From positions 124,001 through 188,000 of the forward strand of contig JACPYM010000022.1 of assembly GCA_016196035.1 (NCBI GenBank): DNA of 64,000 nt. The letters run 5' to 3'. Positions 43,788 to 48,811 of this stretch are shown here, piece after piece. The position numbers and the translations under genes were made by a program. The notes beneath the pieces are model-generated. The model saw nothing but the letters and a program-made list of their open reading frames with translations, ran no database searches and was not told the origin of the DNA. Every line of letters starts with the position of its first letter. Position 1 is the stretch's first letter. Source of the stretch: Acidobacteriota bacterium (GTDB taxonomy: Bacteria; Acidobacteriota; Blastocatellia; RBC074).

Positions 43788-46700
43788 TCACGGCAACGGC
43801 CTCACAAAAACACCATTGCCATTTGTGCCTGCAAACAAATTGTTGCCGCTGACAGCAAGCGTGAAGACGACCAGATTGGTCAATCCTTCATTGAATCCTG
43901 CCCAATTCGCGCCGTTGTCAGTCGTGCGATAGACGCCGCCAGTTGTTCCGGCAAACAAGGTCGTGAAATTCACAGTCAGGGAGAGAACAATCTGATTGCC
44001 TATGCCGTTGTTGATTTGTGTCCAATCCGCCCCGTTGTCAGTTGTGCGGTAGACGCCATTGCCATCTGTCCCAACAAATATATTTGTGCCACTCACGGCC
44101 ATGGAACGAACACGCCGATTGCTCAGGCCATTGTTGACCGGTGTCCAATTTGTGCCGTTGTCGGTCGTGCGGTAGACACCGCCAAAAGTTCCAGCAAGCA
44201 GGGTCGTACCGCTTACTGCTAAGGCATAAACAAACTGATTGTCCAGGCCGTTGTTGATCTGTGTCCAATTCGCGCCATTGTCGGTTGTACGGTAGACACC
44301 GCTGCTATTTGTCCCGGCAAACAAGGTCGTGCCGCTCACGGCCAGTGAGAGAACAATCTGATTGCTCAGGCCATTGTTGATCTGTGTCCAATTCACACCA
44401 TTGTCGGTTGTGCGATAGACGCCATTGCTATTTGTCCCAGCAAACAAGGTCGTGCCACTCACAGCCAGAGAGAAAATAAACTGATCGCCCAAGCCGTTGT
44501 TGACTGGTGTCCAATTGTTACCCCCATTTGTTGAACGAAAGACGCCACCCCCCACAGTCCCAGCGTACAAAGCTCCGCCACTGACAAGCAAAGAACTAAT
44601 AGTCCTCGCATCCCCAGTGGGGCCAGTCGTCATCCATTGCGCCGCTATTCCACCGTTGATCGTAATTGCCACCGTCTTCGTATCACTCCCCACCGGCACC
44701 CCGTTATCACTCACCCCAAAACTCACTGTCACACTCCCCACTTGATTCGCACTCGGCGTCCACGTAAAGCGCCCCGTCGTTGCGCTCGTCTGGCTAAACG
44801 CCGCGCCGCTCGGCAAGCCTGTCGCCGTCAGCGTCAACGGCTGCTCCACATCTGGGTCAACCGCAAAAACATTGAATGCGAGTTGCTGCCCCACCGTCGC
44901 TGTTTGCGCGGGCGGCACGGTCAGCACTGGTGGACGGTTGCGATTGACCGTCACGGCGACGGTTTGCGTCGTGACGGCATTCTGGCTGTCGGTCGCGCGC
45001 AACGTCAGCGTATACGCGCCCGCCGTATTCGCGCCCGGTGCCAGGCGCAAGTTGAAGACGTTCTGCAACGACACAATCGTGGCAAAGGTCGCGCCGCTCA
45101 CCGTCACCGTCACCGTTTGATTCGGGTCGGGATCGCTGACCAGCAGCGGGATGTTGCGCGTCTGGCCTTCGGTGACGGTCAGCAACGGCGGCGCAATCAG
45201 CGTCGGTGGCAGGTTGGGCTGCGTCGTGGGCGAAGGCAGCACCAGATCGGGCGTCACGCGCGTCAGTCCATTCACCACAGCGGCGATGTTGTTGCGCGTC
45301 ACGCGGTCGGTGCGGCCCGTGGGGCGCGTGAAGCTGGCTTCGAGACTGATTTGGTTGTTGCCGTTGACGGCCACATTGCGCAGCGTGAAGCTGCCATTGC
45401 CGTCAGTGAACGTTTCTTGTCCGCTGACTCTGACCAACGCGCGGCGCACCGGCGTTACGTTGTCGCTATCCACGACACGGCCCGTGACGGTGGTCAGCGC
45501 GCGCGGTAATGCGGCAAAGTAAATGCTGGTTTCGGTGATCGCATTCGCGCCCGTTTCGATGCGCGTGCCATCAGCGGATACGGTGGCCGCGCCTACGTCA
45601 ACGAATTGGCCGAGCGTTGCGCTGCCCGTAGTTTGATCGAGTTTGTAAAGCCGTGCCTGTGCATTGGCGGGCAGGCCGTCGGGATTCGGAAAAATCAGTT
45701 TAGCGCCGGGCGTGAGCTTGACCCCAAAGGGCGAAAGTTGCGCGATGGCCGAACTGAACACACCGGCAGGAAACGGCGCGGGCGTGCGGCTGTTGGAAAC
45801 CAGCGTCAAGTAAAGGCGGCCCGCCATCACGCCGGGCGGGAACACACCCGTGATGTTGTCGGGGAAGCTGAACGTGAGGCCGTTGGTGCTGATGCTGCCC
45901 GTCGGTGCGAGCACACGTTGCGCTGTCGCTACGTTTTCAACCACGCCTTCAGCCGTGCCGCCGGTTTGCGTTTGTATCGAAGCGGCCACGCCAGTGATGG
46001 GTTGCAGCGCTGCGGTGGCTTGCAGGTTGTCGCGATTGGCGGTGGCTGTGGCGAGTTTGCTGTAAGGCTGAATCGCCGGTGTCAGCGGCAGTTTTGACGG
46101 ATCAAGTTTGAGCACGCCGAAACCGGCGCTCACATCACGCAGCAAATAGGTGCCGTCATTGCGCGTCGCGGTTTTGATTGCGCCGTAGCTGACTTCGACG
46201 CCGGGCAGCGGGTTGCCATTGGTGTCGGTGACTAGGCCGCTGATGGTCGTGCGCAAAGCGACGTTGTTGGTGCTCGCGCCTTCGCCTTGTGTCGAACGCA
46301 CGGCAATACGCCCCGTTTCCGCGCCATAAGGCACGCGCACGACCAATTGCATGGCCGTGGCGGATTCAATCGCCGTGGTTTCGAGGCCGTTGATGAGCAC
46401 CAGATTGTTAGCCGAAAAACCGGTGCCATTGATCGTGAGCGTTTCGCCTGCCGTCGCCAGCGCGGGCGTAAAGCTGGTGACAGTGGGCGGATTCGCACCC
46501 GTCGTACCCGCGATTTCGATTTCGGTTTCGTTGGAGGCGAAGCCGCCGCCCAAGACCGTGAGCTTCACTCGCCCGCGTCCAAGCAAGGCGCGCGGCACTT
46601 CGACGTTGATTTGGTCTACGCCCGCCAGGCTGCCTTGTTTGGCGGCAAAGCTGGGCGTGGTTTCGATCCCGCCAATCAGCACGCGCACGTTTTCGGCGAC

Positions 46701-47426
46701 GCCATTGCCACTGTTGCCATCGCTGTTGGGCAGGTTGCGAATGCCGCAAAGAAACAACATCAAGAACACACGCTCGCCGGTCGGGCCCAGATTGATCGCT
46801 TTGGTCGTCCAGCGATTGTTGATGAGTTGCGCGATGGTCTCGGTGGTTTGCGCGTTGTTGGCCGCAACGCGCAAGGCGATGGCGGCGGGGACGCCCGCGC
46901 CGTTGGCATTGGCCGTGAAAATGGCAGGAGCCGCGTTGGTGATAGTCAGCTTGCCAGAGTGCGTGAGCGTGCCGTTGCGCAACACGTTGATGATCGCTTC
47001 GCCCGCAGTGGTGCCGGGTGGAATCAGGTAGTTGACCTGCCCCGCCGAAACAAAGAACAAGCCCGCGTTGACGCCGTTGACGGTGACCGCGACGCCGCCC
47101 AGCGTAGTTGGCAATGGTGTTGTCGTGGCCGTGGCGTTGCCGGGCGCGAGGTTCGTGCCGAAACCGGCGGCGATGCCTTCAGGTGTGAGTGCGGTTTCAA
47201 AACTGGCGGCAGAGATCGAACTGAGGGGCGGCGAGGTTTGCAACGGCGCAGTCAAGCCGTGCAAGCGGCTGCCGAAACTAAACGCGGCAAGCAACGACAG
47301 GCAGATAAACGAAAGCGCGAAAGCGCGAAAGCGCGAAAGCGCGAAAGCGCGAAAGTATGGATGGGATATTGTGGCATTGCTGAAAACCTCCTGTTGGCGT
47401 CGGCGTGAATGGCGATTCCGATACAA
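43788..47426 (-). CDS. Large secreted surface protein: TIGR03437, IPT/TIG, Ig-like domains and BNR-like propeller
   Basis: Up to 1212 residues. The frame has a signal peptide (ALSFICLSLLAAFSFGS), a TIGR03437 domain (FGTNLAPG, FFVSAGQVNYLIPPG, NANGAGVPAAI), an IPT/TIG-like part (TSFTPALATAGETLTINGTGF), carboxypeptidase-like and Ig-like repeats (LPGVEVSYGAIKTATRNDGTYL, PPVLTVPPAQTATVGQQLAF), and seven about 41-residue blades with the unit G-V-Y/F-R-T-T-D-N-G-x-N-W (last one incomplete). The start is unresolved. The best ribosome site plus ATG (47387-47392, ATG 47377) is out of frame because of an octamer tract at 47310-47355, leaving only a TTG at 47426 in frame. Probably an adhesin or envelope protein. 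Confidence 0.85.
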   Translation of the reverse strand: MYRNRHSRRRQQEVFSNATISHPYFRAFALSRFRAFALSFICLSLLAAFSFGSRLHGLTAPLQTSPPLSSISAASFETALTPEGIAAGFGTNLAPGNATATTTPLPTTLGGVAVTVNGVNAGLFFVSAGQVNYLIPPGTTAGEAIINVLRNGTLTHSGKLTITNAAPAIFTANANGAGVPAAIALRVAANNAQTTETIAQLINNRWTTKAINLGPTGERVFLMLFLCGIRNLPNSDGNSGNGVAENVRVLIGGIETTPSFAAKQGSLAGVDQINVEVPRALLGRGRVKLTVLGGGFASNETEIEIAGTTGANPPTVTSFTPALATAGETLTINGTGFSANNLVLINGLETTAIESATAMQLVVRVPYGAETGRIAVRSTQGEGASTNNVALRTTISGLVTDTNGNPLPGVEVSYGAIKTATRNDGTYLLRDVSAGFGVLKLDPSKLPLTPAIQPYSKLATATANRDNLQATAALQPITGVAASIQTQTGGTAEGVVENVATAQRVLAPTGSISTNGLTFSFPDNITGVFPPGVMAGRLYLTLVSNSRTPAPFPAGVFSSAIAQLSPFGVKLTPGAKLIFPNPDGLPANAQARLYKLDQTTGSATLGQFVDVGAATVSADGTRIETGANAITETSIYFAALPRALTTVTGRVVDSDNVTPVRRALVRVSGQETFTDGNGSFTLRNVAVNGNNQISLEASFTRPTGRTDRVTRNNIAAVVNGLTRVTPDLVLPSPTTQPNLPPTLIAPPLLTVTEGQTRNIPLLVSDPDPNQTVTVTVSGATFATIVSLQNVFNLRLAPGANTAGAYTLTLRATDSQNAVTTQTVAVTVNRNRPPVLTVPPAQTATVGQQLAFNVFAVDPDVEQPLTLTATGLPSGAAFSQTSATTGRFTWTPSANQVGSVTVSFGVSDNGVPVGSDTKTVAITINGGIAAQWMTTGPTGDARTISSLLVSGGALYAGTVGGGVFRSTNGGNNWTPVNNGLGDQFIFSLAVSGTTLFAGTNSNGVYRTTDNGVNWTQINNGLSNQIVLSLAVSGTTLFAGTNSSGVYRTTDNGANWTQINNGLDNQFVYALAVSGTTLLAGTFGGVYRTTDNGTNWTPVNNGLSNRRVRSMAVSGTNIFVGTDGNGVYRTTDNGADWTQINNGIGNQIVLSLTVNFTTLFAGTTGGVYRTTDNGANWAGFNEGLTNLVVFTLAVSGNNLFAGTNGNGVFVRPLP
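47310..47355 (-). repeat. Octanucleotide tandem repeat (CGAAAGCG, 5.75 copies) in the signal-peptide coding region
   Basis: On plus five full CGAAAGCG units and a six-base remainder. On the coding (minus) strand it reads CGCTTTCG. The unit length is not a multiple of three, so each gain or loss shifts the frame. Confidence 0.9.
47377..47392 (-). promoter_or_regulatory. Ribosome site AGGAGG and ATG out of frame with the surface-protein gene
   Basis: AGGAGG (47387-47392) is followed after nine bases by ATG (47377). From this ATG the frame goes through the octamer tract and meets TGA after 41 codons. Removing one octamer would join it to the large open frame and give a normal signal peptide. 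Confidence 0.75.
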
Positions 47427-47602
47427 GCTGGAACCGAGGTGCTTGGGGCGAGCGGGAAAATACCTTGGCGTTCAGCAACAGTCAATCCGATTTTAGGCGC
47501 ATCGGGGATTCATTCGCCTCGCGTTCGGGGCTTTGCCTGTAGTCCAGTGAAGCTGAGCCTGCGCGTAATTAAAACTCAAGCCTGCAAGCAGTTGAAGAGG
47601 CA

Positions 47603-47715
47603 GGGCCGCCTGGGTACGCACCGCTTCCAGCGTGCAGTCGTCAAGTCGGAGCCGCTGGCCGACACCGTAATCTGCCCAGTCTGCACGCTGGAAGCGATGC
47701 GTACCCAGGCGGCCC
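47603..47715. repeat. 35-bp inverted repeat with one mismatch
   Basis: Arms 47603-47637 and 47681-47715 are complementary at 34 of 35 bases, separated by 43 bases. It fills most of the more than 300-base gap between the surface-protein start and arsR, in which no gene is seen. Confidence 0.85.
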
Positions 47716-47749
47716 GCGCTTTCCACAGTACGCACGGGCTTCACTTAGT

Positions 47750-48193
47750 TTATGCGGCAGCGGCCGTGCCTGGCCCTTTGTCACGTGCCGCGCGGCTGGT
47801 CAATTTTACGATGGGTTGGGCAGCGCAAACCTTGCGCAATTTGGTGAGATCGCGCTGCATCTCTTCCGCTTCACTGCAACAGGTGTTCAGGCAATCCAAA
47901 ACGCGCCGCGCGTGTTCTGACAGCGCGTCAGTCAAGCGGTAATGCACCCAGAGGCCGTCTTTGCGGTCGTTGATCAGACCAGCGCGTTTCAGATAAGCGA
48001 GATGGCGCGAAACCTTGGGCTGATTGGCGCCGAGCACATCCACCAAATGACAGACGCAAACCTCGCCTTCGCGGGCCAGCAGATGCAACAGCCGCAAGCG
48101 CGTCTGATCGGCGCAGGCTTTCAATAAGGCGGCCATTTGTTGCGGCCATTGGCGGGTTTTGGCGTCAAGCGCTTTCTTTGCAGTTTCCGGCAT
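47750..48193 (-). CDS. arsR: ArsR/SmtB-family metalloid-responsive repressor
   Basis: 147 residues. ADQTRLRLLHLLAREGEVCVCHLVDVLGANQPKVSRHLAYLKRAGLINDRKDGLWVHYRL is the ArsR winged helix. The C-V-C pair (Cys46 and Cys48) at the start of the recognition region matches the As(III)-binding site of classical ArsR (here without the third Cys seen in E. coli). It is divergent from arsI. A C-terminal tail rich in Ala/Lys has no clear role. Confidence 0.9.
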   Translation of the reverse strand: MPETAKKALDAKTRQWPQQMAALLKACADQTRLRLLHLLAREGEVCVCHLVDVLGANQPKVSRHLAYLKRAGLINDRKDGLWVHYRLTDALSEHARRVLDCLNTCCSEAEEMQRDLTKLRKVCAAQPIVKLTSRAARDKGPGTAAAA

Positions 48194-48246
48194 GCACTAC
48201 CTCTTTGAAAAAAAATCGCGCCGAAAGTAAATTCGGCTTGACGAAT

Positions 48247-48263
48247 ATACTCACTGACAGTAT
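48247..48263. promoter_or_regulatory. Palindrome ATACT-N7-AGTAT in the arsR-arsI intergenic region
   Basis: Five-base arms around CACTGAC, between the divergent arsR and arsI starts. Its place and AT-rich arms make it a candidate ArsR operator or a promoter box. Inferred only. Confidence 0.45.
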
Positions 48264-48343
48264 CTTGCACCTGCATACGGCAAGGCGAATGTAGCCTAGC
48301 ATAACCAAGGACGACTTTTGAAACCGAATTTGGAGGGAAGCTT

Positions 48344-48811
48344 ATGAAACCGAAACTGCATGTGGCCTTGAACGTCAACAATCTGGCGGAATCACTGGCT
48401 TTTTATAAAGCTTTTTGGGGCGCTGAACCGGTCAAGGTGCGCACGGGTTACGCCAAGTTTGATTTGGACGAGCCGGGCGTAAACCTGACGCTGAACGAGC
48501 GGCCCGTCAAAGAGGCAGGCGGCCTCAATCATCTTGGCATCCAAGTGGGCAGCACGGATGATGTGTTGGCGACTAAGCTGCGTTGGAAAGCCGCTGGCTT
48601 GTTGACCGAAGATGAAATGCAAACGAATTGTTGCTATGCGATTCAGGACAAGGTCTGGGCGACCGATCCGAACGGGTATCGCTGGGAAGTTTTCGTCGTG
48701 CTGAAAGATCAATTGCCCGAAACCGCGACGAACACTCAGGCCACGGCGTGTTGCGCGCCGCTGGCGCAGCCGGTGCAATTGAGCGGGCTTGCGCAAGGAG
48801 CGGTGCAATGA
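48344..48811 (+). CDS. arsI: ArsI/CadI-family protein (C-As lyase type)
   Basis: 155 residues. A glyoxalase-fold enzyme: LHVALNV (His6), GGLNHLGIQV (His63) and RWEVFVVL (Glu115) form the iron site and NCCYAIQDKVWATDPNG holds the vicinal Cys96-Cys97 that bind trivalent organoarsenicals. The tail has a second CC (ACCAPL). In ArsI these split the carbon-arsenic bond of methylarsenite. GGAGGG precedes the start. It overlaps the following GNAT gene (ATGA). It is controlled presumably by the divergent arsR. Confidence 0.9.
   Translation: MKPKLHVALNVNNLAESLAFYKAFWGAEPVKVRTGYAKFDLDEPGVNLTLNERPVKEAGGLNHLGIQVGSTDDVLATKLRWKAAGLLTEDEMQTNCCYAIQDKVWATDPNGYRWEVFVVLKDQLPETATNTQATACCAPLAQPVQLSGLAQGAVQ

Follow-up and report, generated by a model that had tools for sequence, protein, structure and literature searches.

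A perfect tandem array of 5.75 copies of an octamer lies in the signal-peptide region of a gene for a likely exported TIGR03437 protein, and its copy number sets the reading frame of that gene. The gene was found in the window, a stretch of DNA of 64,000 nucleotides from the draft genome of a probable acidobacterium. We establish the array, the frame, the start context and the intact open reading frame (ORF) that follows, and we regard the tract as a real feature and probably as a coding repeat able to switch its gene, with adaptive phase variation as a candidate role only. To the reading that the repeat is prone to slippage, so that changes in its copy number could switch the gene, we assign a probability of about 0.52. 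The features of the locus are, from its upstream end:

47457-47485, minus strand: promoter-like site TTGACT-17-TATTTT, a consensus match only
47424-47426, minus strand: TTG, which between the last stop and the tract is the sole start codon in frame, without a Shine-Dalgarno sequence and not conserved in the paralog C37
47387-47392, minus strand: Shine-Dalgarno sequence AGGAGG, 9 bases before the ATG, with a 7-base match to the anti-Shine-Dalgarno
47375-47377, minus strand: ATG, putative native start as judged from the Shine-Dalgarno sequence and C37; with the 5.75 copies sequenced, it is not in frame with the long ORF
47310-47355, minus strand: perfect octamer array CTTTCGCG ×5.75, 46 bases, part of the signal-peptide region, located by repeat search
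47274-47309, minus strand: FICLSLLAAFSF, hydrophobic stretch of the signal peptide predicted from the translation, directly after the tract
47252-47254, minus strand: TGA at which out-of-frame translation of the ATG start ends, 41 codons on (frame 1 translation)
46512-47213, minus strand: TIGR03437 (Soli_cterm) domain, residues 72-305 of P0001
43788-47309, minus strand: intact 1,173-codon ORF downstream of the tract (translation, domain searches, dN/dS)

Read on the minus strand from 47355 to 47310, the tract comprises five copies of the octamer followed by CTTTCG, with a 100% match at period 8, and its 46 bases compare with a maximum perfect period-8 array of 21 bases in simulated DNA (40 order-1 Markov sequences of 64 kb with the dinucleotide content of the window). 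It begins 22 bases after the ATG at 47377, within the 5′ coding region, and is open in all three frames, each of which encodes the same F-R-A-F-A-L-S-R cycle. Because the unit of eight bases is not a multiple of three and no frame is closed by the tract, the number of octamers sets the frame downstream, and the in-frame state needs one copy number in three. The sequenced copy number is out of frame: from the ATG to the TTT at 47309 there are 68 bases (2 mod 3), and translation from this ATG yields 41 codons (MPQYPIHT...CTA) and then a stop. A first-pass annotation of this DNA had reported the tract of 5.75 copies, the AGGAGG and ATG that precede it, the frame ending after 41 codons and the out-of-frame distance of 68 bases, and our translation and repeat search reproduce all of these. 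Copy number would change by slipped-strand mispairing, and such a change could move the ATG in or out of frame with the 1,173-codon ORF and in this way switch the gene.

Three tandem copies of the octamer occur at a single place in the 9.59-Mb genome (G000, 139 contigs, with the window on contig 22), namely the tract itself, which discards the tract as a member of a dispersed octamer family. With one mismatch allowed there are two further octamer doublets in the genome; the reversed-pattern control for this search gives no independent check, since reversal of the octamer yields a rotated form of the same unit. A strand hairpin promoting slippage was likewise discarded, as the tract DNA folds about as its shuffles do (z about 0.3). 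Known RNA elements at gathering score were absent from positions 46800-48400.

Comparison of the possible start codons supports the ATG at 47377 as the best candidate start of the gene. It matches the anti-Shine-Dalgarno consensus over 7 bases, versus 3 for the TTG at 47426, and of 6,158 ATGs inside long genes only 0.4% have a match of at least 6 bases. Use of Shine-Dalgarno sequences is modest in this genome, with 17.6% of 74 forced starts matching over at least 5 bases. In C37, the paralog on contig 37, the upstream DNA can be aligned with that of the window starting at about 47467 and running downstream past AGGA(G)G-N-TTTCAGC-ATG-CC, with the same Shine-Dalgarno sequence, spacing and ATG-CC in both. 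The ATG of C37 reads in frame, follows a stop as the first available start and has no tract after it. Because C37 shows this context in frame and without a tract, we infer that the ATG is the start used in the family and that its frame was displaced by the tract in the window copy, in agreement with the start chosen in the first-pass annotation.

The gene might instead be ON from the TTG at 47426, with a signal peptide of long n-region and the tract as a harmless coding repeat. The ORF is indeed open from this TTG through the tract, and TTG accounts for 14 of the 74 forced starts; nevertheless, besides its poorer Shine-Dalgarno match, the window TTG corresponds to TCG in C37, whose frame is stopped upstream so that the ATG is its first start, and we consider this explanation unlikely. 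Reinitiation at a TTG at 47255, overlapping the out-of-frame TGA, is speculative and would give a leaderless protein. A programmed -1 frameshift over the tract was rejected upon inspection by eye, which found no X_XXY_YYZ heptamer.

The ORF downstream of the tract belongs to TIGR03437 by a wide margin (133.8 bits, versus a curated cut-off of 29.05) and also contains TIG, CarboxypepD_reg, Ig-like and BNR/sortilin-like repeat domains. The predicted protein thus combines a hydrophobic leader with Ig and BNR domains of secreted type, from which its export appears likely. The earlier designation as a surface protein is backed as far as a likely export, to which the hydrophobic FICLSLLAAFSF and the secreted-type domains point, but surface anchoring and exposure stay candidate properties only. 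Values of dN/dS (Nei-Gojobori) of 0.241 to the paralog C58 and 0.204 to C37 indicate purifying selection on the family, and no sign of decay is seen in the window copy over the 1,173 codons that follow the tract.

Both C37 (75% identity) and C58 (70% identity) lack the tract, which was found in 0 of 10 other genomes of the order, compared as one genome per species; it is therefore not a conserved switch. We found no orthologous match to the locus in the same-genus genome G001, which is 73% complete, and a search of the contigs of other genomes retrieved one relative (41%), in a MAG named 'Acidobacteria bacterium'. This match and the TIGR03437 domain suggest that the window comes from a member of the Acidobacteriota. 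Among the 30 best-scoring TIGR03437 loci, 17 of which cover their open frame as far as its 5′ limit, arrays of unit 4, 5, 7 or 8 were lacking at the 5′ ends, where the only arrays were two 6-mers and one 12-mer.

Perfect arrays are frequent in this genome. In a sample of 2.35 Mb (24.5% of the genome, in 120 stretches including the window) we found 90 perfect arrays when a period of 4-12, three or more copies and a length of 20 bases or more were required, 69 of them of period 7 and five of period 8; 11 of the 90 reach 46 bases or more. The heptamer arrays fall into 27 distinct 7-mer classes, and 38 of the 69 are intergenic. The comparison for arrays at N-termini gave 16 versus 15 (0.069 versus 0.010 per kb), an enrichment that is inflated and unreliable because 5′ UTRs were counted as ORF. 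In-frame arrays also occur in or beside the signal peptides of other exported proteins, at L129, at L083 (a cytochrome c with a lipoprotein-like leader) and at L193 (a beta-propeller). The first of these is:

L129:10844-10877: TTGCCTG ×4.86, encoding the hydrophobic signal-peptide core of a cytochrome c, currently in frame

The tract most likely originated from a general tendency of the genome to expand repeats. The main rival to a switch starts from the same tendency and holds that the array is neutral, that it expanded in a signal-peptide region under little constraint and that it has lately put the gene out of frame, with no selected switching and with the loss of just one of more than 100 secreted paralogs. 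The abundance of arrays, their recurrence at other signal peptides and the existence of two more genes whose frame breaks at an array (see below) all agree with such passive expansion. So does the size of the family: redundancy of the window gene is likely because the genome holds 126 TIGR03437 matches, and C37 is itself frameshifted farther downstream (G000:C37:70039-70045) by an indel away from any repeat. Against it stand the lack of decay in the 1,173 codons and the length of the tract, which is the longest non-triplet array within coding sequence in the sample. In all, we hold passive expansion to be possible, though clearly less probable than a switchable repeat.

We screened arrays that have coding evidence on both sides and obtained 22 cases, 15 in frame and seven out of frame, of which three (the window, L171 and L183) were kept after judgement. 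Those at L113, L184 and L197 were spurious, the ORF being open across the array, as was that at L140, where the array precedes the gene. At L171 (14774-14798, corresponding to C91:54774-54798), CAGTTGG ×3.57 splits a PSCyt1-PSCyt2-PSD1 gene into ORFs of 840 and 329 amino acids in different frames, with positions 1-63 of the PSD1 profile before the array and 65-243 after it, in the other frame. At L183 (11840-11865, corresponding to C31:71840-71865), AATCCGC ×3.71 lies at the ispD-ispF junction, right after an ATG, and puts ispF out of frame. This is the only ispF match in the genome, its frame contains no ATG, GTG or TTG ahead of the DIH motif, and HMG-CoA reductase was not found in the genome. 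The same junction in G001 carries a different heptamer, of TCTCCCA type, in frame within a 431-amino-acid ispD-ispF frame; coding arrays thus change in unit and length in this lineage.

The pathway that contains ispF is normally essential. For this reason a broken frame in the assembly is no proof that a gene is OFF, and the earlier statement that the present state reads OFF from its best start has to be narrowed: the frame of the ATG at 47377 is not that of the long ORF, but OFF does not follow, as the sole ispF is likewise broken at an array. One explanation along these lines is that the assembled copy number is wrong or collapses a mixture, or that the array is bypassed at the RNA or ribosome level, in which case the broken frame would not equal a cellular OFF state. 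The broken sole ispF, with its heptamer array and in a genome where no alternative HMG-CoA reductase turned up, argues for it, as at least this one broken frame cannot equal OFF in every cell; conversely, the 46 bases of the tract should fall well within the length of a short read, the sequence offers neither a slippery -1 heptamer by eye nor any known bypass signal, and we consider this explanation very unlikely. Equally improbable, in our view, is that heptamer and octamer arrays form a genome-wide layer that sets frames in this lineage, essential genes included, and that broken frames are tolerated either through very fast slippage, with a population mixed at many loci at once, or through decoding or transcription that skips repeat units. 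Were this so, the octamer gene would be just one locus among many of its kind.

Returning to a switchable coding repeat, it is favoured by the 46 perfect period-8 bases, the ATG with its 7-base Shine-Dalgarno match, the tractless in-frame C37 and the intact ORF, together with the array turnover evident from the ispD-ispF coding heptamers of the two genomes and with a design like that of the known switches opa and neuO. Against a dedicated switch speak the genome-wide and mostly intergenic distribution of arrays and the frame breaks in the sole ispF and in the PSD1 gene, which would fit passive instability or effects of assembly or recoding. The proposal of the first-pass annotation, a phase-variable switch, is accordingly retained in part: the tract is non-triplet, 5′ coding and frame-setting, but a dedicated role at the surface is weakened by the arrays and breaks elsewhere.

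Repeats in known phase-variable genes offer several parallels. In the opa genes of Neisseria the repeat exerts its role in the leader region. Like the octamer gene, opa has a non-triplet repeat in the region coding for the signal peptide, open in all frames and in frame at one third of copy numbers; its coding repeats, of unit CTCTT, fall in the part for the leader peptide (PMC3960869). Unlike in opa, the unit is of 8 and not 5 bases, the locus is single and the protein is unrelated, and variation, a switch of expression and surface exposure are candidate properties here. The neuO gene of Escherichia coli K1 likewise has a long non-triplet unit, heptamers of AAGACTC, that sets the frame from the 5′ coding region, but its arrays span 3-53 copies with proven polymorphism, and it is prophage-borne and encodes a cytoplasmic enzyme (PMC13001214). 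In Haemophilus influenzae biogroup aegyptius, an array of the octamer GCATCATC is found at hmwA, a gene for an exported adhesin, which compares with the probable export of the protein studied here; the hmwA array lies in the promoter region, with 12-15 copies that vary among strains, whereas the window array is coding, with 5.75 copies in one strain (PMC3309571). At the genome scale, PMC4692102 reports an excess of heptamers in many bacteria and a greater frequency of longer repeats in large, G+C-rich genomes of non-pathogens. The present genome resembles Xanthomonas, Nostoc and other large genomes covered there in its size and in having arrays genome-wide, mostly non-coding and with a unit near 7; the heptamers studied in Xanthomonas and Nostoc are, however, G-quadruplex formers, as opposed to the many unit sequences seen here.

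Should its copy number prove to vary, the tract would give a probable acidobacterium a phase switch of the coding-repeat type; in the portions of the open-licence PMC literature consulted we found none described for Acidobacteria, and that literature yielded no paper on TIGR03437. Rich in repeats, this genome also allows a direct test of whether frames are switched or broken frames tolerated, for which its sole ispF provides an internal control.

Other repeat structures were also observed. A further octamer array, GCTCTGTG ×7.38, is found at L181:4040-4098, about 200 bases before the likely start of a 734-amino-acid ORF. Some intergenic gaps contain facing pairs of heptamer arrays with reverse-complement units (for instance AGTGGTC followed by CCACTGA), that is, hairpins armed with tandem repeats:

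L083:16514-16586, L123:8172-8275, L134:12825-12916 and L094:17222-17316: facing heptamer-array pairs

Upstream of the octamer gene, the window contains at 47603-47719 an inverted-repeat element of about 100 bases, MITE/REP-like, to which dozens of other sites in the genome are similar; G001 contains a few partial matches.
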